Below are positions 586-22,399 of a DNA stretch of 24,062 nucleotides, piece after piece. The notes under the pieces were generated by a model that saw only the letters and a list, made by a program, of their open reading frames with translations, was not told where the DNA came from and made no database searches. The translations under genes were made by a program, and so were the position numbers. Numbering within the stretch: position 1 is the stretch's first letter; the number at the start of each line of letters is the position of its first letter. The stretch comes from a virus. Where the stretch lies: IMG/VR virus record IMGVR_UViG_3300032246_001613, positions 1 to 24,062 of that record; one strand, 5' to 3'.

Positions 586-1167
586 TTAATCGAATAAAGT
601 TGATTCGTCGATTAATGTTACTGCTACTGTACCAAATGTTTGACCAGCAGTCATACCTGTTGTTGTCACATTAAGTTTGGCCTGTGTACCTTCTTGTAAT
701 GTAGGATCGTAAACACGAGTGGTTGCTGAAGTCACATCACGGATGCCTTTTGAAATTGCATCTTGTAGTGCAATCGCAGTAGTTGTGATTGCTGTTGAAC
801 CGTCAATAGCTGTTCCTGTAACTGGAATAAAAGCTGGACGCTCATAGTTCACAGTAAATGCTAAACTAGTTGCTTGTGCATCGCCGTTAGCTTCTGTTAG
901 CGTGATATCACGTATTTGGCAATCTGCAAGACCAGTTAAGCGGTTTGCTATGTTGCGAAAACGCATATTGCCTCTTGCACGGGCTTTAGCTTTGATCAAT
1001 GTTGTTGGCAAGTTAGCTGTGCTAAAACTATCCCACGAGTTTGGGGTTACACCACCGTTATCGTCGCCGTCTGCGGTTGGGTAATATGTAGTATTACTCA
1101 TTGTAATTACTACTCTGTACATCTCAGCTTGTAGCTGATCTACTGCATTTTGAAATCCTGATGGCAT
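586..1167 (-). CDS. Putative virion structural protein
   Basis: This 193-residue protein is rich in T, A, N and V, has few charged clusters, and looks beta-rich, as many phage structural proteins do. It has no signal peptide or membrane segment. The start is supported by an AGGAG sequence 8 nt upstream and by a GATAAATA late-promoter element at 1192-1199, so it is probably a late gene. The downstream membrane/coiled-coil gene follows after 7 nt and is likely co-transcribed. I do not recognise a specific family. The structural role is inferred from composition and promoter class only. Confidence 0.65.
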   Translation of the reverse strand: MPSGFQNAVDQLQAEMYRVVITMSNTTYYPTADGDDNGGVTPNSWDSFSTANLPTTLIKAKARARGNMRFRNIANRLTGLADCQIRDITLTEANGDAQATSLAFTVNYERPAFIPVTGTAIDGSTAITTTAIALQDAISKGIRDVTSATTRVYDPTLQEGTQAKLNVTTTGMTAGQTFGTVAVTLIDESTLFD

Positions 1168-1191
1168 TATTATGCTCCTATTAATATCATA

Positions 1192-1199
1192 TATTTATC
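1192..1199 (-). promoter_or_regulatory. T4-type late promoter element (GATAAATA)
   Basis: On the minus strand this reads GATAAATA, one base from the T4 late consensus TATAAATA. It lies 24 nt before the ATG of the virion-like gene, leaving room for its AGGAG ribosome binding site. Confidence 0.6.
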
Positions 1200-1250
1200 A
1201 GCAATTAGCCCTAATGTCATATTCTACACTAGGACCATGCTGAAAGCAAG

Positions 1251-1598
1251 TTATTTGAACACAATTAATGCCAAAAGTGCGGCCTGCACAAAGAACCCAA
1301 ATCCAATGGTTACAATGTTAAGCAAGTCCTTTTGAATAGTTGCTTTGATAAACAAACAAAACAATCCTGCCCAAACAAACAATACCAAATCTACAGGAGG
1401 CATCTTTTCAGTTAATCCTGTAAGGACTGCAATCATAGTTGGGATTGTGGCTAGATGCATTAGGATAACTGCTACCCAACCTATTGTTTCTGCACTTACA
1501 TGCGGCGCATGTTCTTTAATCGATTTAACCCACAAATCTAAATTAAGAAGATCACTAACGGTATGTTTAATTCGTTCTGTTATAATTGTTAAAGTCAT
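1251..1598 (-). CDS. Three-TM membrane protein, putative holin
   Basis: This 115-residue protein has an amphipathic N-terminal part (about 1-35) followed by three hydrophobic segments near residues 38-60, 70-86 and 92-113. It starts 8 nt after the stop of the endolysin gene with a good AGGAG ribosome binding site. Small multi-TM proteins next to an endolysin are typically holins, which form the lesion that triggers lysis. The holin call rests on size, topology and neighbourhood, not on a recognised family. It could instead be another small membrane protein such as an antiholin. Confidence 0.6.
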   Translation of the reverse strand: MTLTIITERIKHTVSDLLNLDLWVKSIKEHAPHVSAETIGWVAVILMHLATIPTMIAVLTGLTEKMPPVDLVLFVWAGLFCLFIKATIQKDLLNIVTIGFGFFVQAALLALIVFK

Positions 1599-1606
1599 GT
1601 TGTCTC

Positions 1607-2137
1607 CTAATTATAAAAAATATGACGGCCGATTTTGGCCACAGGTTGTTTGCCCCATTTAGGGTTGATGTAATCTCCATGGAAGTAAAGCGCATTTTTA
1701 ATTGAAGGCAACCTGAATCCTTCTAACAACACTTTTTTGGCTACTTCCATACTTTCTGTATACACTGGACCATTCATAGGCTTTTTAGCACTAGGGCCTT
1801 CGCAGTACCAGCTGAACTGGCAAAGCACTTTTTCGTATACTATATTTTTTTGATATACCACACCACAGATGTCACTTGGGAATTGTCCGCTTTCTGCTCT
1901 GTTGATTGTTACTTGGGCTACTGCTACTTTGCCTTCAAAAGGCTCGTAACCTGCTTCGTGATATATGTTGCGAGCTAGACAGTCTAACTGTTTTTGTCTG
2001 ATGTCTGCTGTAATTGTACTCACGTTTTCGCGAGCATGTTTTAGGGTGTCCAGTTTATAATTTACTGCCTTAACCCCTGCTAGTCCTACTAGCATCATTG
2101 CTAAAATAAAGACTACTGTTTTGATAATGCGTATCAT
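1607..2137 (-). CDS. SleB-type cell wall hydrolase (endolysin) with N-terminal membrane anchor
   Basis: This 176-residue protein matches the SleB/CwlJ cell wall hydrolase family (Hydrolase_2). The hallmark block starts near residue 53, with C-L-A-R-N-I-Y-H-E-A containing the catalytic-type Glu, then EGKVAVAQVTINR, then a SDICGVVYQ block. It is expected to cleave the glycan part of peptidoglycan. Residues 4-24 form one hydrophobic segment with basic residues before it and no clear cleavage site. This fits a signal-anchor (SAR) endolysin exported by the host Sec system and held at the membrane until release. A clear AAGGAG ribosome binding site precedes the ATG and overlaps the stop codon of the upstream 49-aa ORF. 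The putative holin follows directly. Confidence 0.88.
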   Translation of the reverse strand: MIRIIKTVVFILAMMLVGLAGVKAVNYKLDTLKHARENVSTITADIRQKQLDCLARNIYHEAGYEPFEGKVAVAQVTINRAESGQFPSDICGVVYQKNIVYEKVLCQFSWYCEGPSAKKPMNGPVYTESMEVAKKVLLEGFRLPSIKNALYFHGDYINPKWGKQPVAKIGRHIFYN

Positions 2138-2150
2138 TGTAATTTCTCCT

Positions 2151-2300
2151 TTACGCTGGATCAGGAATCGCTAGTTCCGTCATTTTAAAATATGGCTCTG
2201 ATACATCTCCTTGTGCGTTAAAAGCCTTACTGCTTATTTGTACTCCAAACCTTTTGAGGTACAATATATAGTTATGCCAGGACGAACAGTATAAAAACAT
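2151..2300 (-). CDS. Small ORF (49 aa) ahead of the endolysin
   Basis: An ATG-started frame of 49 codons fills the gap between the basic protein and the endolysin. Its TAA stop is the start of the TAAAGGAG sequence that serves as the endolysin ribosome binding site, so translation of the two would be coupled. The peptide has an aromatic, partly hydrophobic first half and a polar second half ending in IPDPA. No strong ribosome binding site precedes it, though it starts only 12 nt after the upstream stop. It could be a real lysis-regulating peptide or simply an open stretch. I recognise no family. Confidence 0.45.
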   Translation of the reverse strand: MFLYCSSWHNYILYLKRFGVQISSKAFNAQGDVSEPYFKMTELAIPDPA

Positions 2301-2311
2301 AAGTTTAACCG

Positions 2312-2695
2312 TTATCTGCGCATTTTACTAATATCAACTGCTTGTTCATCACTAAAAACAGGTACAGCATTGCTTTTATGCATGGTCGCAATGCCTTTTA
2401 CCATAGTTCCTGTGTAGATTTTTGGTGGTGGAAGTGTTGCTACACCACCGCCGGAATCTCTGCTAGGAATTCTAGGAGCATCTGCTCCGCGATACATAGG
2501 CTTAGGAGAACTATAAACTTCACTTGTAAGTGCTCGTTTACGTTTTTTATCTTCTGCTTCGATAGCCCAACGCTTTTGTAGCTCTTTCCAACTTTCGTCC
2601 AATTCTCTAGCCTTTCTTGCATGTTCTGCTGATGCGAATTTCTTTTTACCTTTTTTCTTGCCTGTGGTACTGAGCCACGGACCTTCCAAATGCAT
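2312..2695 (-). CDS. Basic conserved phage protein of unknown function
   Basis: A 127-residue protein starting M-H-L-E-G-P-W-L-S-T-T-G-K-K-K-G-K-K-K. An earlier TTG in frame at 2713 would give six more residues, but that codon sits inside the likely ribosome binding site TTGGAG, so I prefer the ATG at 2695. The N-terminal half is very basic and helical, the middle is proline-rich, and the end reads V-P-V-F-S-D-E-Q-A-V-D-I. From memory this type recurs in marine phages and some bacteria without a known role. It is the first gene of the lysis cassette and lies just behind a near-consensus sigma70 promoter. Confidence 0.75.
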   Translation of the reverse strand: MHLEGPWLSTTGKKKGKKKFASAEHARKARELDESWKELQKRWAIEAEDKKRKRALTSEVYSSPKPMYRGADAPRIPSRDSGGGVATLPPPKIYTGTMVKGIATMHKSNAVPVFSDEQAVDISKMRR

Positions 2696-2773: not shown

Positions 2774-3100
2774 TTAAACTCGAAACGATTCACCGCATCC
2801 ACAGCGATCGCGTTCATTTGGATTGACAAAATCAAATCCTTCGTTGAGTCCATTGCGAACCCAATCTATAGTTAGCCCGTCTAGGTAAGCCAAACTTTTT
2901 GCATCAACTAATACTATAAAATTTGGTTGGCCAAAATTAGTAACGCCTACTTCAGCTTCATACTTATCCACATATTCTATGGTGTATGCTAGTCCACTAC
3001 AGCCTGTAGTCCTTACACCTAACCGAATACCTACACCGTGGCCTCGCCGTTCTAGATTTTGTTTAATTTTTTTAGTGGCTGTTTCGGTTAAAGTAATCAT
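2774..3100 (-). CDS. iscA: A-type iron-sulfur carrier protein (IscA/HesB family)
   Basis: This 108-residue protein has the full length and the three ligand cysteines of A-type carriers: C34 in T-T-G-C-S-G, and C100 and C102 in the C-terminal C-G-C-G-E-S-F. These proteins receive Fe-S clusters (or iron) and pass them to apo-proteins in the cytoplasm. The ATG overlaps the stop of the 2OG oxygenase gene by 4 nt (ATGA), so the two are translationally coupled. It is the last gene of the iscU - oxygenase - iscA set. HesB/IscA-like genes are known from marine T4-like phages. Which of IscA, SufA or ErpA it resembles most cannot be settled here. Confidence 0.93.
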   Translation of the reverse strand: MITLTETATKKIKQNLERRGHGVGIRLGVRTTGCSGLAYTIEYVDKYEAEVGVTNFGQPNFIVLVDAKSLAYLDGLTIDWVRNGLNEGFDFVNPNERDRCGCGESFRV

Positions 3101-3717
3101 AAAATTATCAATTCTTCAGGGCCGCCTTTGCCTAAAGTACCCTTGACAAAATAGTTAAAAGCCAAACAATATCGTGTGCTGTCAGATCGATTAGTTTCTG
3201 CTCTGTGAAACAAATTACTAGGAAATATCAGTATTTGTCCTTCTTCTGGAGTAACTCTGAAAGTTTTAGAGTTGAATGAATTGTATTCCTTGACACCAAT
3301 ATCAAGCATACCTAATTGCAAGTTATCGTTGGATTTTTGAAAAACCAAATCCCCAGAGTTAGGAGTTACTTCAATATACAATACTCCGCTGATCAGAGAA
3401 TTGATATGAAAGTGTGCAAAATTATAGTCACCCGGAGGATGTTCCATTATCCAGGAGTTTTTTAAAACTAAATCCACTCCATCAGCAGGACTGTAAATTT
3501 TATGCCCAAAGTCTTGAACATGCTTGTCTACTGTTTTTCTTAGATCTTCCAAACCAGGTTCGTTTAGAATATATTTGTTGACAGATATGTTAGCACTGCC
3601 GCCGTCTATTCTTTCAAATTGAATTTGTTTGACTATGTCTTTGACTGTGTTGGTGATAACAATTTCACTAGAATATAACGGTATTGGAAACAAAGATGCT
3701 AATTTTGTTTTATCCAT
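3097..3717 (-). CDS. Putative 2-oxoglutarate/Fe(II) oxygenase
   Basis: This 206-residue protein fits the phage 2OG-Fe(II) oxygenase family 5 pattern. A histidine pair H102-x-H104 comes before the S-G-V-L-Y-I strand. G-D-L-V-F follows, then E-G-Q-I-L-I-F-P-S with a distal H171 and R182, which would bind 2-oxoglutarate. Such enzymes hydroxylate or oxidise proteins, sugars or small molecules using Fe(II) and O2. The substrate is unknown. The gene overlaps iscU upstream by 8 nt and iscA downstream by 4 nt, so it is embedded in the iron-sulfur operon. That placement suggests a link to iron supply or sensing, or to modification of an operon partner, but this is inference. Confidence 0.8.
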   Translation of the reverse strand: MDKTKLASLFPIPLYSSEIVITNTVKDIVKQIQFERIDGGSANISVNKYILNEPGLEDLRKTVDKHVQDFGHKIYSPADGVDLVLKNSWIMEHPPGDYNFAHFHINSLISGVLYIEVTPNSGDLVFQKSNDNLQLGMLDIGVKEYNSFNSKTFRVTPEEGQILIFPSNLFHRAETNRSDSTRYCLAFNYFVKGTLGKGGPEELIIL

Positions 3718-4090
3718 GCCTATCCTTGTAATCTTTTACAGCGGCCTTTATGGCATCTTCTGCTAGAATTGAACAATGTATCTTAACTGGAGGTAGTGCT
3801 AGTTCTTGGGCAATTTCGGAGTTTTTAAGATTGAGAGCATCATTAATGTGCATACCCTTAACCCACTCTGTAACCAACGAGCTACTGGCGATTGCTGAAC
3901 CACATCCATATGTCTTGAAACGAGCATCTCTAATAATACCATCTTCGTCTACCTTTATTTGTAGTTTCATAACGTCACCACAAGCAGGAGCACCGACCAT
4001 ACCTGTACCAACTGTTGGATCGTTTTTTTCGAACGATCCAACATTGCGGGGATTTTCGTAGTGGTCGATTACTTTATCGCTGTATGCCAT
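3710..4090 (-). CDS. iscU: Iron-sulfur cluster scaffold protein IscU
   Basis: A complete 126-residue IscU. All key residues are present: C37 and D39 in G-A-P-A-C-G-D, C63 in Y-G-C-G-S-A, and H105-C106 in K-I-H-C-S. IscU builds [2Fe-2S] clusters with the cysteine desulfurase IscS, which is not in this window and would have to come from the host. The stretch L-P-P-V-K at 99-103 is the known recognition motif for the Hsp70 HscA, so the protein looks able to use the host transfer chaperones. It is the first gene of iscU - oxygenase - iscA. There is no ribosome binding site; a late-type CATAAATA ends only 4 nt before the ATG. Confidence 0.95.
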   Translation of the reverse strand: MAYSDKVIDHYENPRNVGSFEKNDPTVGTGMVGAPACGDVMKLQIKVDEDGIIRDARFKTYGCGSAIASSSLVTEWVKGMHINDALNLKNSEIAQELALPPVKIHCSILAEDAIKAAVKDYKDRHG

Positions 4091-5939: not shown

Positions 5940-7040
5940 TTATAACGCTGGTAATTCGTCATAGTCTAATGAATCGCTCATTACTCCTATAACGTAGTTT
6001 GTGCTTTCACTTTCTTGTAGTGCTGTTTGTTTACTGCTTGTGTTAACGTGCTTGTTAAACCATGGGATAGGTGTAGACTTAGGAGCAGGGTTGTTGTACT
6101 TAATACCAATTTCCTTTAGTGCGCTCACTGCTGTATAGTCTACGAAGTCACGTAGAATGTTAGCGTTTAATCCAATTACAGGACCTAGTTTAAACAAATA
6201 GCTGGCCCATTCTTTTTCTTCGCGTATAACATCCATATACAAATTATACACTTCTTGTTCGCATTCTGCTTTCACTTCGGCGAAACGAGAATCTTCCTTG
6301 ACAACCTGATTAATCAAATAAGCTGTCCAACCTTTGTGTAGCAGTTCGTCTTGTAGAATCAAACTGATAATGTTGCCGTTACCGATAAAGATTTTATTCT
6401 CCACCATGGCCAAGCTGGTGGCAAAACTCACCATGAACCTGAACGCTTCTAGTGCATAACTAGCGTGTAGTGCCATATAAATTGCTTTGATATGTGTACG
6501 TTCGTTGATCTTTTCGCCTGCTTCTTTACGACAGTTAATCAGATGTAATGCATCATAATAATCGCCTACACTTGATGCCATGTCTACTATTTCTTTAGTG
6601 TCATGGATAGTATTAAAAACTTCTTTAGGCACATTATAGATGTTACGAATAATATGACTGTAACTACGACTATGAATATTAGTTTCAAAGAATGTCCAAT
6701 TGTATACTAGTGCTTCTAGTTCTGGCAAACTTACTACCGGAGTAAAGATTTGGCTTGGGCCGCGTCCTTGCAAACTGTCAAGAGCAGTTTGGCGGAGCAA
6801 GTTACTAGTGAAGATATGTTTAACTGCATCAGATGCATCCTTAAAGTCGCTGGCATCTTTGCTAAGACTGATTTCTTCAGGTACCCAGAAAAAGCCACGT
6901 GCAGTAGTTTCGAAGTCTGCAATCTTTTTGTACTTAACTTCTTCAAAACGCTGGATGGTAACTGGGCCAGCTGGATCTAGAAACATCTTACGATTCAAGT
7001 AGTCTGTCTTTGTGTGTAAATTATATTGTTGTTTGCTCAT
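5940..7040 (-). CDS. nrdB: Class I ribonucleotide reductase small subunit NrdB
   Basis: This 366-residue beta subunit makes and holds the diiron-tyrosyl radical cofactor. By alignment to E. coli NrdB, the visible ligands are D88, E119, H123, E198, E232 and H235, with the radical tyrosine Y127 in H-S-R-S-Y. The C-terminus ends D-Y-D-E-L-P-A-L, the usual docking tail for NrdA. One oddity is the E119-H123 spacing, which is one residue longer than E115-H118 of E. coli; all other ligand spacings match exactly. The start overlaps the superoxide dismutase gene by 20 nt. Confidence 0.96.
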   Translation of the reverse strand: MSKQQYNLHTKTDYLNRKMFLDPAGPVTIQRFEEVKYKKIADFETTARGFFWVPEEISLSKDASDFKDASDAVKHIFTSNLLRQTALDSLQGRGPSQIFTPVVSLPELEALVYNWTFFETNIHSRSYSHIIRNIYNVPKEVFNTIHDTKEIVDMASSVGDYYDALHLINCRKEAGEKINERTHIKAIYMALHASYALEAFRFMVSFATSLAMVENKIFIGNGNIISLILQDELLHKGWTAYLINQVVKEDSRFAEVKAECEQEVYNLYMDVIREEKEWASYLFKLGPVIGLNANILRDFVDYTAVSALKEIGIKYNNPAPKSTPIPWFNKHVNTSSKQTALQESESTNYVIGVMSDSLDYDELPAL

Positions 7041-7572
7041 TAATATGTTCCCAATTCATTATCTTCCATTGATTCTTCAAATAACTTTTCTTTTCAGATT
7101 GATAGTCTAATGCCCATGCATGTTCCCACCAGTCTACTAAAACTACAATGTCTTTTTTAATTGCATGATTAGTTATAGTTTTAATCTTACCGTCCTTAGC
7201 AAGATAGACCCAACCACTGCCTTGTATAGCCATTGCTACTTTTTCAAACTCATCTTTGAACTTTGCAAATGTTTTGTAATGTGTGTTAATCAACTCTGCT
7301 ACTTTACCTGTTGGTTCATTACTATCTTTTGGATCCCGGTACTGCTGAAACAGGATATTATGTAAAAATACACCAGCTTCATTAAACACAGGATCACCTT
7401 CGCCTGCATTATAACGTTTGGCATACGTCTTGGCAAGATGTTCATAATGATATTCTAAGGTCGCCTTAGAGATAGCAGGATTCAAATCATTCATACCATA
7501 TGGTAGAGCATCTATTTTTAGTGATGCTGGTCTACCTTCAGTGATGAATTGTCTAATAAAACTGTACGTCAT
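7021..7572 (-). CDS. Iron/manganese superoxide dismutase
   Basis: A 183-residue Fe/Mn SOD with metal ligands H42 (E-Y-H-Y), H71 (F-L-H-N), D147 and H151 (D-W-W-E-H-A-W), and the conserved G-S-G-W core at 118-121. It converts superoxide to O2 and H2O2 in the cytoplasm. The usual second histidine cluster after H42 (H-H in E. coli) is replaced by L46-A47. By alignment, H136 falls where MnSOD has Gln146, resembling the His-type SOD subfamilies. The ATG overlaps the nrdA stop by 4 nt and the gene overlaps nrdB, so it is a built-in part of the reductase operon. A role protecting the radical cofactor, or managing its metal, is inferred. Confidence 0.92.
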   Translation of the reverse strand: MTYSFIRQFITEGRPASLKIDALPYGMNDLNPAISKATLEYHYEHLAKTYAKRYNAGEGDPVFNEAGVFLHNILFQQYRDPKDSNEPTGKVAELINTHYKTFAKFKDEFEKVAMAIQGSGWVYLAKDGKIKTITNHAIKKDIVVLVDWWEHAWALDYQSEKKSYLKNQWKIMNWEHINEQTTI

Positions 7573-9911
7573 AATTTACACGACTCACAATCATCTTCTA
7601 GATCATCATATTGATAACCGTTAATCTGAACTCCGTTAATTTGTGTCTGTTCAGGCGCTATTTCGGCAACTTGTTTACTACCTTGTTTATTAATCAAACT
7701 GTAGTAGAACGTTTTTAATCCCCACAACTGTGCTTGCATCAAGTTCTTAGCAATCAACGTAGTTGGAACTTTACGATCTGCAAAGTGCGCTGGATTATAG
7801 AAAGTGTTTGTACTAATACTTTGATCAACGTAGGCGGCCAAGACTGCACTTGTTTTTAAATAACCGTCGCAGTTTTTTTGATCCCACATAAGTTGATATT
7901 TGTTTTTAAGTTTATGATACTCAGGAACAACTTGTACAAACGATCCTGCTTTTGATTCCTTAACACTGATAAGGCTCATAGGCATTTCAATTCCATTAGT
8001 GCTGTTTATAACAACACTACTGCTTTCGACTGGCGCAATAGCCATTAGTGTAGCATTGCGAACTCCGTACTGTTTCATGTTAGTACGTAATGTCTCCCAA
8101 TCAAGTTCTGGTGTAAAGTCTGCTAGTTCGTTAGCACCTTTGGCACGTAGTTCCCAAGGGAAGGTGCCTTGTCCGTAGCGTGTCTTCTCACTATGTAAGC
8201 AAGCGCCACGTTCTTTGGCTAATTCAACTGTTGCTTCCGTTAGGTAAAATGCCTGATGTTCCATCCAACTCTTAACATCTTGTAGTGCGTCTTTGTCGCC
8301 GTACTTGAGTCCGCGCTTGGCATGCCAGTAGGCTAGATTAGTAACACCAATACCTAATGGTTGTATTTCATCATTGCTCAGCTTAGACTGTATAGATAGG
8401 AAGTCTTGGTAATCAAGTATGTTGCATAGACTACGCTGTAAAATGCGGCAAGCACGGCGCATGTCTTCTGGATTACGGAATGCTCCCCAGTTGATCGAGC
8501 CGAGTGTGCAAAGAGCAATGCGGCCATCAGCATCATCAAGACGCTTAAAAGATTTAGTAGGTAATAGGATTTCACAGCATAAGTTACTTTGATAAATTGT
8601 GTGGTACTCAGGATCGAATGGTCCTTGATTCATTACGTTGTCGATAAACACTAGATAGATACGTCCTGTATCAGTACGCTCTTTCAGTATGCCTGATTTG
8701 AATACTTCTTCAGCACTCATAGTCTTGGTACGTAAGTCTTTACGTTTTTCATATTTGACATATAGCTGTTCAAATAGTGCAGTATCTTTATAAAATGCTT
8801 CGTACAAGTCTGGAACTTCGTTTGGGTCAAAGAAAGTTATAGCTTCCTTATTTCGAAATCGTCTCCAGAAGAAGGCAGACAATACCACTCCATAGTCCAT
8901 ATGTCGAACCCTAGTTTCTTCTGTTCCTTGGTTATTCTTAAGAACAATAAGGTCATCAAACTGATGATGCCAAATGGGATAAAATACAGTAGCACTTGCA
9001 TTGCGTATGCCTCCTTGACTACAACTACGTAAGTCGCCAAACCATTTCTTTAAGAATGGTATCATACCAGTATGCATGATCTCTCCGCCACGGATAGGAC
9101 TACCTAGTGGACGTAAGCGACCAATTTCTAAACCAATGCCAGCACGTTTACTGGCATACTTGGCCATCATCTCGCCAGAGGCAAAAATGGAATCCAAATC
9201 ATCATCACTACGAATAAGAACGCAACTACTAAATTGCTTAGTAGGAGTTCCAAGACCAGCCAAAACGGGAGTAGCCAAAGTAAACAAACCATCTGAAGCG
9301 GCATTGTAATACTCTTTAATAAAACGCATCCTAGCACTGTTAGGTTCTTCTTTGTGGAACACAGTAGCGGCCGCGACCATATATCTAATTTGTGGAGTTT
9401 CATAAATTTCCTTTGTGGCACGATTACGCACCAAGTATTTTTCAATCAACTGCTCAATTGCCGCGTAACCATACTGTTCATCTTTTTCATGATCCAGCAT
9501 ATCATCCATTCGATTCCAGTCGTCTTCGCTATACCATTCTAATAGCTCTGGAGTATATAATCCTATATCAACATTTCGTTTCACAATAGAAAAAAGGCTT
9601 GGAGGTGTGTATGTACCGTACACATCTTTACGAAGCATACTCAATCGTTGCTTGCCAGCTACATATTGGTAATTGGTATGTCCTACGTCTGGGTTCTGCT
9701 CGACGTCTATAAGATCTACTATAGCCCTTAAAGTGATGCCATCGATTTCTGTTGTAGTTATGCCGTCATAGAAATGTAGCTGAGCTTTGATCTCTATCAT
9801 TGATTGGCTAACGTCTGCAATGCCTTGGCACACCTTAGCCACTTGCGCTTGCCATTTTTCAATATGTAATGGCTCTTTATTTCCGCTTCTTTTGATTACT
9901 GTAATGTTCAT
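7569..9911 (-). CDS. nrdA: Class I ribonucleotide reductase large subunit NrdA
   Basis: This 780-residue alpha subunit reduces ribonucleoside diphosphates to deoxy forms for phage DNA synthesis. An ATP-cone regulatory domain covers about residues 1-90. The catalytic set is visible: C230 (F-S-S-C), N443-x-C445-x-E447 (S-N-L-C-C-E), C468 (L-C-T-L-G-S), and the radical-path pair Y-Y in K-T-F-Y-Y near the end. The C-terminal C-E-S-C-K-L is the shuttle pair reduced by glutaredoxin. An in-frame TTG at 9929 would add six residues, but I choose the ATG at 9911 because the protein then starts M-N-I-T-V-I-K-R as usual. It heads the operon nrdA - sod - nrdB - grx. Confidence 0.95.
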   Translation of the reverse strand: MNITVIKRSGNKEPLHIEKWQAQVAKVCQGIADVSQSMIEIKAQLHFYDGITTTEIDGITLRAIVDLIDVEQNPDVGHTNYQYVAGKQRLSMLRKDVYGTYTPPSLFSIVKRNVDIGLYTPELLEWYSEDDWNRMDDMLDHEKDEQYGYAAIEQLIEKYLVRNRATKEIYETPQIRYMVAAATVFHKEEPNSARMRFIKEYYNAASDGLFTLATPVLAGLGTPTKQFSSCVLIRSDDDLDSIFASGEMMAKYASKRAGIGLEIGRLRPLGSPIRGGEIMHTGMIPFLKKWFGDLRSCSQGGIRNASATVFYPIWHHQFDDLIVLKNNQGTEETRVRHMDYGVVLSAFFWRRFRNKEAITFFDPNEVPDLYEAFYKDTALFEQLYVKYEKRKDLRTKTMSAEEVFKSGILKERTDTGRIYLVFIDNVMNQGPFDPEYHTIYQSNLCCEILLPTKSFKRLDDADGRIALCTLGSINWGAFRNPEDMRRACRILQRSLCNILDYQDFLSIQSKLSNDEIQPLGIGVTNLAYWHAKRGLKYGDKDALQDVKSWMEHQAFYLTEATVELAKERGACLHSEKTRYGQGTFPWELRAKGANELADFTPELDWETLRTNMKQYGVRNATLMAIAPVESSSVVINSTNGIEMPMSLISVKESKAGSFVQVVPEYHKLKNKYQLMWDQKNCDGYLKTSAVLAAYVDQSISTNTFYNPAHFADRKVPTTLIAKNLMQAQLWGLKTFYYSLINKQGSKQVAEIAPEQTQINGVQINGYQYDDLEDDCESCKL

Positions 9912-9925
9912 TTCGTCCGCTTTAT

Positions 9926-9973
9926 ACAAGTTATAATGTGTAGGCAGTATTTAGTGGTTAGGTTATAACTTGT
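9926..9973. promoter_or_regulatory. 11-bp inverted repeat flanking the nrdA-proximal promoter
   Basis: ACAAGTTATAA (9926-9936) and TTATAACTTGT (9963-9973) are exact reverse complements separated by 26 bp. One arm overlaps the TTGACA -35 element and the other lies between the predicted start and the nrdA ATG. This is a plausible paired operator. The core AAGTTATAA also occurs just downstream of the lysis-cassette promoter at 2714-2722. Confidence 0.5.
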
Positions 9974-12192: not shown

Positions 12193-12200
12193 TATTTATC
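12193..12200 (-). promoter_or_regulatory. T4-type late promoter element of the tail fibre
   Basis: It reads GATAAATA on the minus strand, about 21 nt before the fibre ATG, and touches the stop codon of the nuclease gene. Confidence 0.6.
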
Positions 12201-12915
12201 AGTTTTGATTGTAGTACTGTTCCACCCTATTCCACCATTGCTTTTCCCAATGTTCGAACATATCCGGAGTTAAGATAAACTCTTGGTACGCAGGTTCTCC
12301 CCAAGTCATAGGCTTAATTTCGGGAGGTTTCACACACATAAACACAACACCTTTTTGAATATTAGTTCCGTGTACTTTGTTGTGTGCTAGTGCATAAGCT
12401 ACCATTTGTAAGTAATAGTCTTCAATCCACTCTTGCTTCTTGGGCTTGTTAGTCTGCTTATGGTCCATAATAGCGGCCTCACCTAAGTGCAAGCCTACAC
12501 AGTCTGTGGTGCCCGCATACAATCCAGGGTAGTAAAGTCCAACTTCAACACCCCATATTTCGTCTACGTTTTTAAGCCCGTGTTCGATAATATGATTAGC
12601 CATCTTGTGGCTTTGTATACTATATGGATTAGTGCCTGGAGGATTAATAACGCCTTGTGTAATATAGTCTTCGAGGAACTTATGCATACGTGTTCCACGG
12701 CCTGCGGCTTCGGTCACAATTTCTTGTGCTTTCTTTTCACCAACAGACTTTTTCCAATTGAGTAAGGCTTGCACCTTTTCCCATGGTTTGGTCTTGTCTA
12801 GGATTGTTGTGACGCTGGGCAGTTTGCCTCCGTCTGGCGTGGCGTATAGTCGCTTGCCTTCTACACTTTCCCTGTTCAAAGGAGTGTAGTCATATCTTTC
12901 TTTGAGTAATGTCAT
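12199..12915 (-). CDS. PD-(D/E)XK exonuclease-like protein (RecB/Cas4 type)
   Basis: This 238-residue protein has the core of the PD-(D/E)XK nuclease superfamily. In order: R-G-T-R-M-H-K-F-L-E with H78, E124 in W-G-V-E-V, G-T-T-D138, the D151-H-K153 pair, and the motif-IV-like Y-Y-L-Q170-M-V-A-Y. It most likely degrades DNA, for host DNA breakdown or recombination, as similar genes in T4-like marine phages are thought to do. It has no ribosome binding site: its ATG coincides with the predicted start of a perfect-consensus sigma70 promoter, so the mRNA should be leaderless and made early. Confidence 0.85.
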   Translation of the reverse strand: MTLLKERYDYTPLNRESVEGKRLYATPDGGKLPSVTTILDKTKPWEKVQALLNWKKSVGEKKAQEIVTEAAGRGTRMHKFLEDYITQGVINPPGTNPYSIQSHKMANHIIEHGLKNVDEIWGVEVGLYYPGLYAGTTDCVGLHLGEAAIMDHKQTNKPKKQEWIEDYYLQMVAYALAHNKVHGTNIQKGVVFMCVKPPEIKPMTWGEPAYQEFILTPDMFEHWEKQWWNRVEQYYNQN

Positions 12916-12953: not shown

Positions 12954-13310
12954 TTATTGTGCTCGTTTTGTGGCCGCCATTGCTGTTTGATCTAGCACAT
13001 CCTTACCTGGTTCGCCTTGAACTTCTGGATCGGTTTCATTATCGAGTTCACGTTGTTTGCCTGTGTTAATGACAATGCCGTCTTTATCGAATTTTTTAAT
13101 CAGTTTGGCTTGTTTGATCTGTTGCATGACTTGATCGTTTGGATCGTTCCAACGTGCTACAAATCTTTGATATTCAACGCCTGGTGCGCCGTCTTGTGCA
13201 ATTTCATGACTCAATGCGCTCCAACGCATTGGAGCGACTGCTTGAGTATTGTCTGCGTTAGCCTGTATAGACTGTAATGCTACTAATAACGGGTCTAAAT
13301 TTTCAGTTAC
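12954..13310 (-). CDS. C-terminal extension in the -1 frame, reached by frameshift
   Basis: An open frame of 118 codons begins right after the A-run at 13311-13319 and ends at 12954. Its first ATG is only at 13229, but the 27 codons before it already look like protein (V-T-E-N-L-D-P-L-L-V-A-L-Q-S-I-Q-A-N-A-D), continuing into A-P-M-R-W-S-A-L-S-H-E. No usable ATG, GTG or TTG and no ribosome binding site exist in that part. The natural reading is that this is the C-terminal domain of the upstream 353-residue protein. It would be joined either by -1 ribosomal frameshifting at A AAA AAG or because one A is missing in the sequence. Its function is unknown. Confidence 0.65.
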   Translation of the reverse strand, partial: VTENLDPLLVALQSIQANADNTQAVAPMRWSALSHEIAQDGAPGVEYQRFVARWNDPNDQVMQQIKQAKLIKKFDKDGIVINTGKQRELDNETDPEVQGEPGKDVLDQTAMAATKRAQ

Positions 13311-14368
13311 TTTTTTTTTGATTGAGCCAACATCATGCCTAGTTTACGGCTGTATTGTGATTCTCTCATTTCTCTGCCTGCAGGGCCTGCTTCAGCACCT
13401 GGCATTTCTTCGCCCGGCATTGGTTCTTCGCCTGGAGCCATACCTAGACCTTCTTCGCCTGGTACTGCTGGAACTTCGCCTGGAGCCGCACCTGGTGTTG
13501 CACCCATCATTTCACCGCCGCCTTGTCCTGATACAATGCCAAGGCCTGAACTTAATGAACCGCGAGTCTTTTCTAACGATGCATAAATTTCTTCTAGTGC
13601 TGGACGAATCGCCTGTGTGTATTGTTCGGCAACATCAGAACCTAATTCTTCTCTTATAGAGTCTATTAATTGTAGGAATTGTTCAGCTTTCATAGCTGAC
13701 ACATCATCTAACCAGCCTGTGATACGATCAACCATGTCTTTGGTAGACATGATAATTTTGGCTTTTTCTTCTTCGCCTTCTTGTAGATATACAATGTGGT
13801 TAGCAACATTTTCGCTTAGGTCATAACGTAGAACTAATTCACTTGCTAATTCGCTTTGATCACTCTCGCCTAGGTTGATGCGTCGGATAGCGTCAGCGAT
13901 CCAACTACTTGGAACTGAATGTTCCTTAGCTTTTAAGGCTAGCTTGCCTAAATAAATGTTATGGTCCATACTTTCCTCTGCTTTTTGTTTTTTATCTTTG
14001 CCGCCTTTTGCATCTTTACCTAAGCGGCCTGCGATTACATCACCGCGTGTAACTTTGTCGTATGGTTTAGCATTGTTGGCTAAATTACCATCGCCCTTGC
14101 CTTCTTCCATAGAAGCTTCACGCTCTAAAATCTCTTGATTGATAACATCATGTAGCATACGTACTTTTTGATACTTTGGGCTAGTAGAAACGCTATCGAA
14201 GCTTTCACTAACCTCGAACTGGCTCATTTCAGTGCGCATTTTATTGCGGGCATCTTCCAATTGAGCATCACTAAAATTTTCAAGGTTTAGTTTGTACCCT
14301 AACTGACGAGCCATATTTTCGTTAAGTTTTTTACTTGTAACTGGTTGAGAAAGTTCTCTAATGTTCAT
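13307..14368 (-). CDS. Large conserved phage protein, possibly internal to the capsid
   Basis: This 353-residue protein starts M-N-I-R-E-L-S-Q-P-V-T-S-K-K-L-N-E-N. The first ~100 residues are helical and charged, residues ~100-135 are basic and glycine-rich, ~140-290 are helical, and ~295-340 form a low-complexity tract of P, G, E, M and A. It ends S-K-K-K-stop directly at an A-run. From memory, proteins with this N-terminal helix pattern are conserved in T4-like marine phages without a firm role. L-N-E at 15-17 fits a prohead-protease cut site. A perfect T4 late promoter TATAAATA lies 26 nt upstream with a TAGGAT ribosome binding site. Confidence 0.72.
   Translation of the reverse strand: MNIRELSQPVTSKKLNENMARQLGYKLNLENFSDAQLEDARNKMRTEMSQFEVSESFDSVSTSPKYQKVRMLHDVINQEILEREASMEEGKGDGNLANNAKPYDKVTRGDVIAGRLGKDAKGGKDKKQKAEESMDHNIYLGKLALKAKEHSVPSSWIADAIRRINLGESDQSELASELVLRYDLSENVANHIVYLQEGEEEKAKIIMSTKDMVDRITGWLDDVSAMKAEQFLQLIDSIREELGSDVAEQYTQAIRPALEEIYASLEKTRGSLSSGLGIVSGQGGGEMMGATPGAAPGEVPAVPGEEGLGMAPGEEPMPGEEMPGAEAGPAGREMRESQYSRKLGMMLAQSKKK
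13310..13319 (-). other. Slippery sequence A AAA AAG followed by TAA
   Basis: In the zero frame the gene ends TCA AAA AAA AAG TAA. The heptamer A AAA AAG (13316-13310) is the same slippery heptamer used by E. coli dnaX. A -1 slip skips the TAA and enters the 118-codon frame, giving a ~471-residue product. I see no strong stimulatory hairpin or well-placed internal Shine-Dalgarno, so a homopolymer length error is the main alternative. Confidence 0.5.
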
Positions 14369-14393: not shown

Positions 14394-14401
14394 TATTTAT
14401 A
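14394..14401 (-). promoter_or_regulatory. Perfect T4 late promoter (TATAAATA)
   Basis: It reads TATAAATA on the minus strand, identical to the T4 late consensus, 25 nt before the ATG of the 353-residue gene. It overlaps the end of the preceding gene. Confidence 0.75.
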
Positions 14402-14873
14402 CAAAAGACCAACGAAATAGCTTGGAGATTTCCTCTTTGTATTGATTAGCTTTCCAAGTGCTGTCTTCTAACTTATTTAACAGAATCAAGTAACGTTCAT
14501 ATTCTTTTGTCTGCTTGATATTATGCTCGTATACCATGCTTCTGTAATGGTTGCTCCAGTACTTGTTATCTAATAATTTGATTTCGTTATACTTTTCAAT
14601 TCTAGTATTGCTCAGGGCTTTGGCCGCAATAAGCGCACAGGTCCTAAGATTGAATTGGCCATGTATATCGGATCCTGTGCGCCTGTTATAAATGCACCAA
14701 TTACCCTGCTTGTCTTGTCTAACAAGATAATCCTTATATGCTACACTACCGTCGGGTAATGGGATCAACGGCACTATCTTTTTGAATTCAATATTCAGCA
14801 CATCGGCTAATTTGGTTATATTAGCCGGGCTTGTTGTTTTCTTTTGTTTAGGTCTAAATTTTGTTTTGGTCAT
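14397..14873 (-). CDS. Conserved phage protein of unknown function
   Basis: This 158-residue basic protein has a lysine-rich start (K-F-R-P-K-Q-K-K) and a central beta part (D-G-S-V-A-Y-K-D-Y-L-V-R-Q-D-K-Q-G-N-W-C). Its helical C-terminal half contains N-L-R-T-C-A-L-I-A-A-K-A and a W-rich end, K-L-F-R-W-S-F-V. It overlaps the upstream 69-residue gene by 20 nt and belongs to the run that starts with the nucleotidyltransferase. I recall similar unannotated proteins in marine T4-like phages but no function. Confidence 0.7.
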   Translation of the reverse strand: MTKTKFRPKQKKTTSPANITKLADVLNIEFKKIVPLIPLPDGSVAYKDYLVRQDKQGNWCIYNRRTGSDIHGQFNLRTCALIAAKALSNTRIEKYNEIKLLDNKYWSNHYRSMVYEHNIKQTKEYERYLILLNKLEDSTWKANQYKEEISKLFRWSFV

Positions 14874-15063
14874 TGGCTACTACTTTAGGATTTACCATCC
14901 CTACTTTAGTTACCAGACTTTTGCGGATCAGAGCCTCGATCCTGAACTGTTCTTGCTCGCTTAGACTGGAAAGCAAGATAGGAGTTTTCAGCTTGTTTAA
15001 AATAACAGCTTCTTCGTTGGTAGTAAAAACACCAAACTCTCCTAATAGCTCGTTTATTCTCAT
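14854..15063 (-). CDS. Small protein with capsid-targeting-like leader
   Basis: This 69-residue helical protein begins M-R-I-N-E-L-L-G-E-F-G. The first nine residues match the pattern M-x-x-x-[EQ]-[LIF]-[LIV]-x-E seen at the start of T4 scaffold gp22 (M-L-K-E-Q-L-I-A-E), and L-G-E is a fit for the prohead protease site. The ATG overlaps the upstream stop by 4 nt. The mature part after the leader has no recognisable domain. A head-internal location is inferred from the leader alone. Confidence 0.7.
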   Translation of the reverse strand: MRINELLGEFGVFTTNEEAVILNKLKTPILLSSLSEQEQFRIEALIRKSLVTKVGMVNPKVVANDQNKI

Positions 15064-15725
15064 AGACCTGATAACAACTTAATACGTGATACTTCTGCCG
15101 ATTCTTCTAACTTTTGAAATTGACTGGGTCTTGGGTTGTTTGTATTATACGGCATGTGTTGTGCTGGAGCATATTTTTGATTTGTGTTACCGGGCAAATG
15201 AGACAGTCCAGTAATCTCTGAGAAATCACGTGGACTAACTTTAAAAACTGTACCTGTGGCTAGTGCAAGATATTTTTTGCCGTTCGCTTCAATATATCGT
15301 TCTTCAAAATCAGGTGCTGATCTTGCAATCAATTCAGGAGTGATGTCACCGCTGGCTTTTTCTAAAGGAGTACCTTTAATATTACCATTATCCATTACCA
15401 TTGGACGCAATGGGTTTGCTATGCTGACCTTAGGAATTTGTCTTGGAACAGGTTCTTCTTGTACTTTGAGATCTTGGCCAGGCTGTATTTGTTGATCTGG
15501 ACTAACAGCACTACTAGTGTTGCTTGTCTGGGTATTAGCTGTTGGTTTGCCGTCAGGGCCTTTGGTAATCATATTACTAGGAATTTCACTAGTGACACCG
15601 TTTGGCATAGTAACATCGACGCTACCAGGTTTATCGCCTTGTGCAGGATTTACTTTTGTTATCTTGCCTGGAGTACCTTGTCCGGGTATTGGGCCATCTT
15701 CGTATACAATTTCTTTAACTTTCAT
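15060..15725 (-). CDS. Proline/glycine-rich protein with capsid-targeting-like leader
   Basis: This 221-residue protein begins M-K-V-K-E-I-V-Y-E-D-G, which fits the shared leader pattern. Residues 10-110 are rich in P, G, T, Q and S and probably disordered. Residues ~130-170 form a more ordered part (R-Y-I-E-A-N-G-K-K-Y-L-A-L-A-T-G-T-V-F-K-V), and the C-terminus is helical. It overlaps the nucleotidyltransferase gene by 11 nt upstream and the 69-residue gene by 4 nt downstream. I recognise no family. Confidence 0.7.
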   Translation of the reverse strand: MKVKEIVYEDGPIPGQGTPGKITKVNPAQGDKPGSVDVTMPNGVTSEIPSNMITKGPDGKPTANTQTSNTSSAVSPDQQIQPGQDLKVQEEPVPRQIPKVSIANPLRPMVMDNGNIKGTPLEKASGDITPELIARSAPDFEERYIEANGKKYLALATGTVFKVSPRDFSEITGLSHLPGNTNQKYAPAQHMPYNTNNPRPSQFQKLEESAEVSRIKLLSGL

Positions 15726-16416
15726 ATGTGTTTTCCAAACTTAATTGGTTATCCTTTAATTTAGTGATCCGTTTGTGTATTGCATCAATCTTGCCACGAC
15801 TACGTAGTAATTTAAATGCTAGGTTCTCTACACTAAACTCGCCACCTCGGGCTAGGCCAGCTTGCCGCAATCTCTTTAAATCTGCCGCAACACTCTCTAG
15901 TGTATTTAAGTCATTTGACTTGAGAGCTTTGTTAATCATAACAGCATAACTGCGGGCTTTTTGACGTACTTCTTTGTCTGTTACTTCCGGAGTCTTATGC
16001 TCAGGCTTAGTGATCCATTGATTGTTTAGTACACTGTATATGCCAGCAGAATGATGTGTTTGTTTGGCATCCTGCACATACACTTCCACATCAATACCAT
16101 GCAACTGTATTTTGTGTTTGAAATTGTAGTTGTTCTTTTTAGCATCAAACAGTTCACGTATAACAGGATCATCTGGCATGACTACTATCAAGTGTAGATC
16201 CACATCACTGTATTCGCTGTAACCGTAACTGGCATTGGATCCACTGATGGTTATGTCTTTTAAATTAAGTTGGGGAAGCGCAATAAACTGCACAAAATCT
16301 TTGGCAATGGCCATGAGTTTACGGCGGACATCCTGTTTTAAGAATGTGCCGGTCCATAGCTTGGGATTTAGTGTGCTGTGATAGGTAACAGCTTTGACAA
16401 ATTCGTTTATGCGCAT
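15715..16416 (-). CDS. Nucleotidyltransferase (DNA polymerase beta superfamily)
   Basis: This 233-residue protein has the core of a minimal nucleotidyltransferase: I-S-G59-S60-N-A-S-Y-G-Y-S-E-Y-S-D71-V-D73-L-H-L, and a third acidic position near D109-V-E111 in the next strand. Such enzymes move an NMP to RNA, protein or a small molecule; the target is unknown. The C-terminal ~90 residues are helical and basic. The N-terminus M-R-I-N-E-F-V-K-A is close to the shared leader, identical in its first five residues to the 69-residue protein downstream, but lacks E9. No ribosome binding site is present; TTAAATA ends 4 nt before the ATG. Confidence 0.83.
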   Translation of the reverse strand: MRINEFVKAVTYHSTLNPKLWTGTFLKQDVRRKLMAIAKDFVQFIALPQLNLKDITISGSNASYGYSEYSDVDLHLIVVMPDDPVIRELFDAKKNNYNFKHKIQLHGIDVEVYVQDAKQTHHSAGIYSVLNNQWITKPEHKTPEVTDKEVRQKARSYAVMINKALKSNDLNTLESVAADLKRLRQAGLARGGEFSVENLAFKLLRSRGKIDAIHKRITKLKDNQLSLENTYES

Positions 16417-20362: not shown

Positions 20363-20773
20363 TTAGCCTATTGCGTCTTGTTCAAACAAGTCAGGATGCT
20401 CTTTACCCCAGTTACGCATGATAATGGCGGCTTGTGCATTAGCTTCATTTTCTTGTGGACTACCAGTTGCACCTGCATTTTCATCTACTAACTGATCTTG
20501 TAAGTCTTGTTTGTAATGTACAAGCTCATGTGCCAATGTACGACACACATCCATGATGTGACGATTCTTTACAGTGACATCAATATGTTTTTCGCCTGGC
20601 ATGTATCCGCCAAAGCTCTTACGGTCAACACTTGTGTTACTGTCAAATATAAAATCAAACTTTGGTAGTGTTTTTAATTCTAATGACTCGGCCGCAAAAC
20701 GCACAAACTCATGTAGTATTTTAAATGTACTACGCTTGTCTAAACTTTCAGTTAGTATCTGTGTTACTTTCAT
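20363..20773 (-). CDS. Zinc metallopeptidase-like protein with capsid-targeting-like leader
   Basis: This 136-residue protein has a clear H-E-L-V-H zinc motif (T-L-A-H-E-L-V-H-Y-K-Q-D) near 84-95 and a downstream E-N-E-A-N-A-Q-A-A that can supply the third ligand, as in gluzincin-type peptidases. It begins M-K-V-T-Q-I-L-T-E-S-L, an exact fit to M-x-x-x-[EQ]-[LIF]-[LIV]-x-E, and L-T-E is an ideal prohead-protease site. It may be packed in the head and injected to cut a host protein, or may act in assembly. It overlaps the upstream gene by 4 nt. Confidence 0.75.
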   Translation of the reverse strand: MKVTQILTESLDKRSTFKILHEFVRFAAESLELKTLPKFDFIFDSNTSVDRKSFGGYMPGEKHIDVTVKNRHIMDVCRTLAHELVHYKQDLQDQLVDENAGATGSPQENEANAQAAIIMRNWGKEHPDLFEQDAIG

Positions 20774-21184: not shown

Positions 21185-22399
21185 ATGATAAACAAAGAAC
21201 CCTTTCAAAAACTAATTACAGAACTTAAAGAAAACGGCAAATATCGTGTGTTCAACGATATTGTACGTGAAAACGGCAAGTTTCCCCAAGCTATCTGGTA
21301 CGGGCCTTACAACATTAAAAACATTGTAAACTGGTGCAGTAATGATTACTTGGGCATGGGTCAACACAAAGTTGTCTTAGATGCCATGCACACAGCACTG
21401 GATCATACTGGAAGCGGTTCTGGTGGTACACGTAACATCGGCGGCACTAGCCATTATCACGTGGCCTTAGAGCATGAGCTGGCAGGATTACATAAAAAAG
21501 AAAAAGCAGTATTGTTTAGCAGTGCTTATGTGGCCAACGAATGGACACTAATTGCCTTAGCTAAGATTATTCCAAACATTGAGTTTATTAGTGATGCTAA
21601 CAATCATAACAGTATCATTGTAGGCATAAGTCATAGTAAGGCTAAGAAAGTTGTATTCAAACACAACGACTTAGAAGATCTAGAACAGAAACTTAAGATT
21701 AGTTTTGCACAAGGCAATACACCCTGTGTAGTATTTGAAAGTGTATACAGTATGGACGGAGATTGTGGCCATATCAAAGAGATATGTAAGTTAGCTGAAA
21801 AGTACAAGGCAATTACCTATATTGATGAAGTACATGCTGTAGGCTTGTACGGTGCTACTGGCGGCGGCAAAGTAGAAGAGCTTGGACTTGAAAACAAAAT
21901 TGACATAGTCAATGGTACCTTGGGAAAGGCCTATGGAGTTCAAGGAGGCTATATTGCCTGTGATAAGATTGTAGCTGATGCTATCCGTAGCGTGGCCGCG
22001 GGCTTTATCTTTACAACTAGCATGAGTCCAGTTAGTTGTGCTGGTGCTATGGCGGCCGTTAAGTATCTTAAGGATCATCCTGAGATCCGTGAAAAACATC
22101 AAGAACGTGCTCGTAAACTAAAACATCGTTTGGGTGTTGCTGGAATTTCTGTTATGGATTGTGCTACAGAACACATTGTTCCTGTACTTGTTGGTGATGC
22201 TAAAAAGTGTAAAGCAATGAGCGATGCACTATTAAATGACTTTAACATCTATGTACAGCCAATCAATTATCCTACAGTTGATGTGGGAACGGAGCGGTTG
22301 CGTTTTGCACCTACTCCGTTTCATGATGATGGTATGATTGAAGACTTGGTTAAAGCTCTGGTGGCTGTGTCACAACCGGGCTATCTGAAGTTAACTTAA
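21185..22399 (+). CDS. hemA: 5-aminolevulinate synthase (ALAS)
   Basis: A complete 404-residue ALAS, which condenses glycine and succinyl-CoA to 5-aminolevulinate, the first step of heme and other tetrapyrroles in alphaproteobacteria. Signature blocks in order: [10 protein letters not shown] (50-59), [14 protein letters not shown] (76-89), E-S-V-Y-S-M-D-G-D, the PLP-phosphate/pyridine site D214-E-V-H-A-V-G, and the Schiff-base lysine K248 in G-T-L-G-K-A-Y-G, the same number as in Rhodobacter ALAS. The related KBL/BioF enzymes lack this combination. The last 50 nt overlap the convergent cupin gene. No ribosome binding site is seen. Confidence 0.93.

Follow-up and report, generated by a model that had tools for sequence, protein, structure and literature searches.

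What is known of frameshifting in phage structural genes comes mainly from tail chaperones and from the coat proteins of other phages. Frameshifted C-terminal extensions have been described for gene 10A/10B of T7 and T3 and for coat or tail proteins of the Lactobacillus phage A2 and the Listeria phages A118, A500 and PSA (PMC5009743). Here we analysed a 24,062-nucleotide stretch of viral DNA (the window), in which the minus strand carries two overlapping reading frames, ORF1 and ORF2, that are likely joined by ribosomal -1 frameshifting. As in the T7/T3 10A/10B group, a virion protein would have a minority longer form, made by a shift close to the 3' end of its gene. The present pair differs from that group in its protein family, in its probable origin from T4-superfamily phages, in its extension, which is predicted to be winged-helix-like whereas theirs is Ig-like, and in the fact that the ORF2 partner exists elsewhere as a separate gene.

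What the present locus has in common with the lambda G/GT pair is a -1 (or -2) shift that is conserved and placed close to the 3' end of a probable late gene. However, neither lambda product is found in the virion whereas homologues of the present proteins are, the pair is not located beside a tape measure gene (its neighbours are an exonuclease gene and small virion-type genes) and no sequence relation to G/GT was found. E. coli dnaX has the identical heptamer A_AAA_AAG, as pointed out in the initial annotation of this DNA and borne out here, together with a downstream hairpin, which is also seen in many relatives of the window. In contrast to dnaX, the shift here leads to a longer product, a Shine-Dalgarno (SD) stimulator is absent and the run consists of nine A. 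A few bacterial dnaX genes are reported to have, as here, a zero-frame stop codon directly after the site (PMC5009743).

The mechanism itself is of a known kind. In the literature searched, there was no report of frameshifting in this protein family or in T4-superfamily virion genes. Likewise absent from these papers were the gene family with its spread through uncultivated phages and the way in which recoding and a separate start replace one another. The family, with at least 560 relatives, extends over hundreds of uncultivated phages from freshwater and the sea, and in most members automated gene calling will break up or shorten the product. Replacement of a start codon by an A-run, or the reverse, provides an unusual natural test of the reasons for which a phage would join two proteins through recoding.

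Architecture of the junction

Positions of the features discussed here are presented in Table 1. The minus-strand junction reads GCT CAA TCA AAA AAA AAG TAA, which forms the 3' end of ORF1, and the C-terminal residues of ORF1 are A-Q-S-K-K-K. An X_XXY_YYZ heptamer in the zero frame is thus located just before the zero-frame stop (A_AAA_AAG TAA, 13316-13307). The initial annotation had described a 353-residue gene ending S-K-K-K-stop at a run of nine A, where a -1 slip directly before TAA enters a 118-codon frame, and a fused length of about 471 residues; the minus-strand sequence (14368-13307) agrees with this in every respect, and 353 and 118 add up to the proposed length. The nine-A run also has the length of the A/T homopolymers (about nine) associated with transcriptional slippage of the Thermus dnaX type. 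No SD stimulator is present at the usual upstream distance, the sole AGG-like motif being 18-21 nt 5' of the heptamer and therefore too far. The peptide expected across the ORF1-ORF2 junction is, for example, VTENLDPLLVALQSIQANADNTQAVAPMR after K.

Table 1. Features of the ORF1-ORF2 locus, with positions in the window
Feature	Position	Strand	Basis or remark
T4-type late promoter match, TATAAATA	14394..14401	(-)	33 nt upstream of ORF1 start
ORF1, 353 aa, virion structural protein by homology, short zero-frame product	13307..14368	(-)	PHROG 14154; hhalign to Rak2-like ORF1
Run of nine A	13311..13319	(-)	tandem heptamers A_AAA_AAA / A_AAA_AAG; then G13310
Slippery heptamer A_AAA_AAG, zero frame	13310..13316	(-)	sequence
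TAA stop of ORF1	13307..13309	(-)	abuts heptamer directly
ORF2, 118 codons, -1 frame, putative C-terminal extension, predicted winged-helix-like fold	12954..13310	(-)	conserved in all relatives
Strong distal hairpin, ~75 nt 3' of slip site	13208..13250	(-)	window, L001, L002, L003, L006
Exonuclease gene, conserved downstream neighbour	12199..12915	(-)	phrog_298 E 4.4e-51; gene order

ORF2 opens with the codon GTA at 13310 and stops at 12954. Its first ATG is codon 28 (13229-13227), and neither an ATG, GTG or TTG before this codon nor an SD motif is present in the window, so that the junction shows a coding -1 overlap without a start of its own. The other two frames contain 8 and 11 stops across the same span, so that the open frame of ORF2 is no accident. 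Among relatives, substitutions at codon positions 1, 2 and 3 number 85, 51 and 138 in codons 1-27 and 298, 202 and 541 after codon 27. The excess at the third position, seen also in codons 1-27, indicates that the part of ORF2 before the ATG is translated too, in line with the earlier suggestion that these 27 codons are coding and have neither a start nor a ribosome binding site. No stops or frame breaks were seen in ORF2 of the relatives.

Conservation of the junction and natural controls

Relatives were collected from the uncultivated phage contigs of IMG/VR. A first scan gave 11 relatives of ORF1 with 59-87% identity, all of which have TCA AAA AAA AAG TAA at the junction and -1 frames of 109-120 codons. 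Profile searches led to 29 distinct sequences including the window, down to 37% ORF1 identity, and all of these have TCA AAA AAA AA[G/A/C] TAA with a -1 frame of 102-127 codons. Wider scans, from each of which 80 relatives were kept, gave at least 560 relatives and 174 distinct junctions.

Junctions were assigned to a slip class when the A-run was at least 6 nt long, the -1 frame of ORF2 was open through the run and no SD motif with a start was located within 20 nt of the stop. This class comprises 147 of the 174 distinct homologous junctions and extends down to 37% ORF1 identity to the window; site and frame are thus kept across divergent relatives, together with a bias towards the codons TCA and AAG, which supports the programmed -1 frameshift proposed in the initial annotation. 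The run is exactly nine A in 128 of the 147 slip junctions and at least nine in 141, and the codon preceding it ends in A in all 147, even where the amino acid is changed (TCA, ACA, CCA, GGA). Five relatives from one clade have only A6G. Two members of the slip class, L021 and L166, carry an SD-like motif before an in-frame ATG/GTG further in, 41 and 29 nt past the stop, respectively.

The run is lost in 22 junctions, and each of these has an ATG for ORF2 4-15 nt past the ORF1 stop, with an SD-like motif detected by scan in 19 of them, usually in the context TAAGGATA...ATG. These separate starts are found in frames 0, +1 and -1 alike. In a sister pair, L157 has a broken run (TCAAAAAAGAAATAG) together with an SD motif and ATG, whereas L207 has TCA-A9-G-TGA and no start. 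Such natural controls, in which loss of the run is matched by gain of a start, make an accidental overlap untenable. An independent start for the second frame, which the frameshift reading had been expected to fail on, is absent in the slip class and present in every relative without the A-run. Alignment of the relatives, as advised earlier, reveals no in-frame fusion of ORF1 and ORF2 among the 174 distinct junctions; the A-run with its -1 relation is kept in 147 and separate starts are used in 22.

Junction states were placed on a tree of ORF1 from which the last 12 residues had been removed. Slip and separate-start states require 5 changes on this tree as compared to a mean of about 18 when shuffled. 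When Rak2-like phages serve as outgroup, slip junctions are widespread, with separate starts nested among them, the rooting and the polarity of the changes being provisional. No relative was present in bacterial and archaeal genome contigs, and our searches did not find a cultured phage with the frameshifted form.

In four relatives (L109, L118, L119 and L120) the run is 10-11 A long and ORF2 lies in the +1 frame, which would need a +1 or -2 shift; TCA-A11 and TCC-A10 variants of this group have the same frame relation. A second, divergent cassette (ORF1, -1 ORF2 and exonuclease) is present as L055 (G001:C1:53000-57000, 1166-2511, minus strand) on the 85.9-kb contig of L005, with an identical SKKK slip site and in opposite orientation. 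Either the phage has two such loci or the contig is chimeric.

Codon choice and RNA structure around the slip site

Codon bias was analysed in 57 representatives whose ORF2 sequences are less than 60% identical. The Ser codon before the run is TCA in 51 of 51 cases as compared to 34% elsewhere, and the run closes with AAG as its final Lys codon in 48 of the 57 as compared to 29% elsewhere in ORF1, both comparisons ignoring residual relatedness. Since TCA also completes a second in-frame heptamer, A_AAA_AAA, its preference is undecisive between ribosome and polymerase.

Stimulatory downstream structures are frequent in prokaryotic -1 frameshifting, although not universal (PMC4066793). Among the 29 closest sequences, 23 have a hairpin directly 3' of the slip site, with z below -2 in 22. 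These proximal hairpins differ in sequence between subclades and contain covarying pairs. Pairing is seen in 82.5% of cells as compared to 75.2% when shuffled and 30-48% in slid versions, and neither this pairing nor the covariation score of 0.218 (0.113 when shuffled) was reached by any of 500 shuffles. A stable hairpin adjoining the site is absent in the window (z +0.55) and in L001, L002, L003, L006 and L008. In the whole family, mean z is almost the same in the 147 slip junctions (-1.45) and in the 22 separate-gene junctions (-1.46), which means that the hairpin belongs to one clade; a universal hairpin stimulator is therefore not supported.

The distal hairpin of the window holds the first ATG of ORF2 (13229-13227) in its loop. 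It is built on a CGCTCCAATGCGTTGGAGCG core with an outer helix that varies among relatives, and is kept in the subclade without the proximal hairpin.

Ribosomal or transcriptional slippage

The conserved junction is best explained by ribosomal -1 frameshifting, which likely gives rise to a less abundant, longer version of a virion protein that ends in a winged-helix-like domain. ORF1 would be transcribed late, and most ribosomes would terminate at the TAA to give the 353-residue protein. A fraction would slip by -1 with A_AAA_AAG in the P and A sites and read 118 more codons, and the resulting 471-residue form would carry the winged-helix-like domain at its C-terminus. The ORF2 domain would in this way be brought into the particle attached to ORF1. 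The long form is presumably the minority product and may be placed in the head or inside the particle, and it is plausible that slips set the ratio of the two forms in this phage gene, as had been suggested.

Judging from the junction sequences, it is probably the ribosome and not RNA polymerase that slips. A hairpin 3' of the site would be unable to form with the polymerase on the A-run and thus favours the ribosome. In E. coli, A_AAA_AAG is far more shift-prone than A_AAA_AAA or A_AAA_AAC (PMC5009743). Efficient bacterial transcriptional slippage has been reported for runs of nine A or T (PMC5009743), and the A6G of five relatives, being shorter than this, also counts for the ribosome. A point against ribosomal frameshifting is that the A-run is held at nine, beyond the need of the heptamer; the missing proximal hairpin in the window and five close relatives, the hairpin z-scores of the whole family and the missing SD stimulator likewise count against it.

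Transcriptional slippage would give the same protein: the polymerase would stutter on the nine A's, and ORF2 would be in frame in those mRNAs that carry ten. The run of at least nine A in 141 of the 147 junctions, which is the length reported for efficient slippage, and the A-ending codon kept before it despite amino acid changes are as expected from a stuttering polymerase, and the relatives with 10-11 A and ORF2 in the +1 frame would be served by slippage in either direction. However, a -2 ribosomal shift like that of phage Mu (PMC5009743) could also account for that +1-frame group, the run shows a strong preference for AAG rather than AAA as its final codon though a longer run would help the polymerase, hairpins are present 3' of the site in the closest clade and five relatives have six A's only. 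We therefore consider polymerase slippage unlikely, though deserving of attention. Similarly, there is some small chance that the nine-A run is kept mainly for slippage by a phage-modified late RNA polymerase, or that polymerase and ribosome both slip. In that case, the balance between the two virion proteins would be determined by the late transcription machinery, the same mixed mRNAs would also account for ORF2 expression in the +1-frame subclade, and switching between slippage-linked and separately started genes would come easily to the lineage.

Other explanations

Ribosomal frameshifting was also weighed against separate translation of ORF2, whether initiated internally or by ribosomes that stop and restart at the overlap. 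A separate start is indeed what the Rak2-like phages use, and ten slip junctions end in TGA, so that the first ORF2 codon is GTG where the stop abuts the run. However, the stop is TAA or TAG in the other 137 of the 147, where the overlap codon is therefore no GTG start. L001 has no ATG, GTG or TTG in ORF2 until codon 96, the first ATG of the window is placed at codon 28 in a hairpin loop without SD, and separate translation would leave the conservation of the A-run without a reason. This makes it very improbable.

The initial annotation had regarded a miscounted homopolymer, with really ten A and one continuous frame, as the main rival. Homopolymers are the usual spot for sequencing and assembly errors, and the record is a single metagenome contig. 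However, the -1 relation recurs in 147 distinct junctions from many metagenomes and in no relative is there an in-frame fusion, which excludes such an error for practical purposes. Forms with A10 still run directly into TAA, and these, together with runs of six with the same -1 relation, represent variation unlike sequencing errors; a lost run, moreover, is replaced by SD and ATG. There is hardly any chance that ORF2 is a decaying or unused remnant with a functionless site, since, although it is less conserved than ORF1 (20-66% as compared to 39-90% identity to the window), its frame is open in all relatives, substitutions are concentrated at codon position 3 on both sides of codon 28, and the run is held against drift, with lineages lacking it having gained a start.

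Protein identity and homologues in Rak2-like phages

Residues 189-272 of ORF1 match PHROG 14154, annotated as 'virion structural protein' under head and packaging (E 1.3e-7), and all 9 of the 9 members of phrog_14154 match ORF1 (best 1.8e-9). A sequence search of the PDB gave nothing relevant. The ORF1 model has a low pTM of 0.29 and was used solely for finding remote phage homologues; the structure-based matches led to the cultured jumbo phages Vibrio 2.275.O, Salicola SCTP-2, Agrobacterium Atu_ph07 and the Rak2-like phages. Comparison of ORF1 with Rak2-like ORF1 by hhalign gave 96.9% (E 1.3e-10), including the GREMRES-YSRKLG end.

In 121Q, PBECO4, GAP32, CBB, BF, Munch and XaC1, the ORF1 homologue is followed by a gene of 107-111 aa and then by the exonuclease. 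The window is similar to the Rak2-like phages in having the ORF1 homologue, a short ORF2-like gene and the same exonuclease in this order, with 46% identity between its exonuclease and that of GAP32. In contrast, the Rak2-like pair consists of separate genes that lack the A-run, the second having its own ATG and an SD, which in most of these phages is GGAGG-type. The upstream neighbours in the window (69 and 158 aa) have no detectable similarity to their positional counterparts in GAP32. CBB_298 and CBB_299 are the separate homologues of ORF1 and ORF2, and both were identified in the CBB virion by ESI-MS/MS, with 10 unique peptides and 35.8% coverage for CBB_298 and 2 unique peptides and 20.0% coverage for CBB_299 (PMC5259590 Table 4).

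A PHROG search with ORF2 gave no match, and hhalign of ORF2 against phrog_15050, the 'virion structural protein' family of the second Rak2-like gene, gave in a single comparison a weak 28.7% (E 6e-4). Because this profile link is weak, the homology of ORF2 is also based on where the gene lies, on its size and on a C-terminal V..MA..A motif common to both. The winged-helix-like fold predicted for the window ORF2 is consistent with homology to the Rak2-like gene. When the ORF2 model (pLDDT 73) was used as query, winged-helix proteins came out on top in both Foldseek and VIA, none of them significant (best PDB E 0.21, VIA Z 4.9).

ORF1 residues from about 86 to 133 (window 14113-13970) form a hypervariable cassette, in which unrelated linker modules are swapped between close relatives. 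Over 26 residues, the module present in the window is about 85% identical to one that recurs in cyanophage 'cytidyltransferase' proteins (phrog_764). A shared linker module explains the cyanophage matches to ORF1 residues 83-116, which were therefore rejected as whole-gene homologues.

Late expression and genomic setting

Either TATAAATA or ATAAATA is located at most 60 nt upstream of ORF1 in 162 of the 174 relatives, and none of 870 control windows contains TATAAATA. In the T4-like cyanophage S-PM2, the late motif is NATAAATA (PMC2984593), and the 356-kb contig of L027 encodes a T4-type gp23. The late promoter motif and the gp23 on this contig suggest that ORF1 probably belongs to the late genes of a phage in the T4 superfamily.

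Where ORF2 homologues have a gene of their own, they tend to carry M[KR][VIF]x[ED][LI]xE at the N-terminus. In the window, starts of the form M[KRN][IV]x[EQ][LIF] are present on the minus strand in 14854-15063, 15060-15725, 15715-16416 and 20363-20773 and at 14368 (ORF1). T4 internal head proteins have a short conserved capsid targeting sequence (PMC3012670), and the N-terminal motif is possibly a shared capsid-targeting-like tag. It is tempting to speculate that fusion to ORF1 replaces such a tag of ORF2.

The window also carries metabolic cargo, located at 7021-7572 (-), 21185-22399 (+), 7569-9929 (-), 3710-4090 (-) and 2774-3100 (-). A Fe/Mn superoxide dismutase and a class I/II PLP aminotransferase-fold enzyme were identified by Pfam, and ribonucleotide reductase and IscU/IscA-like iron-sulphur genes were assigned by translation only.
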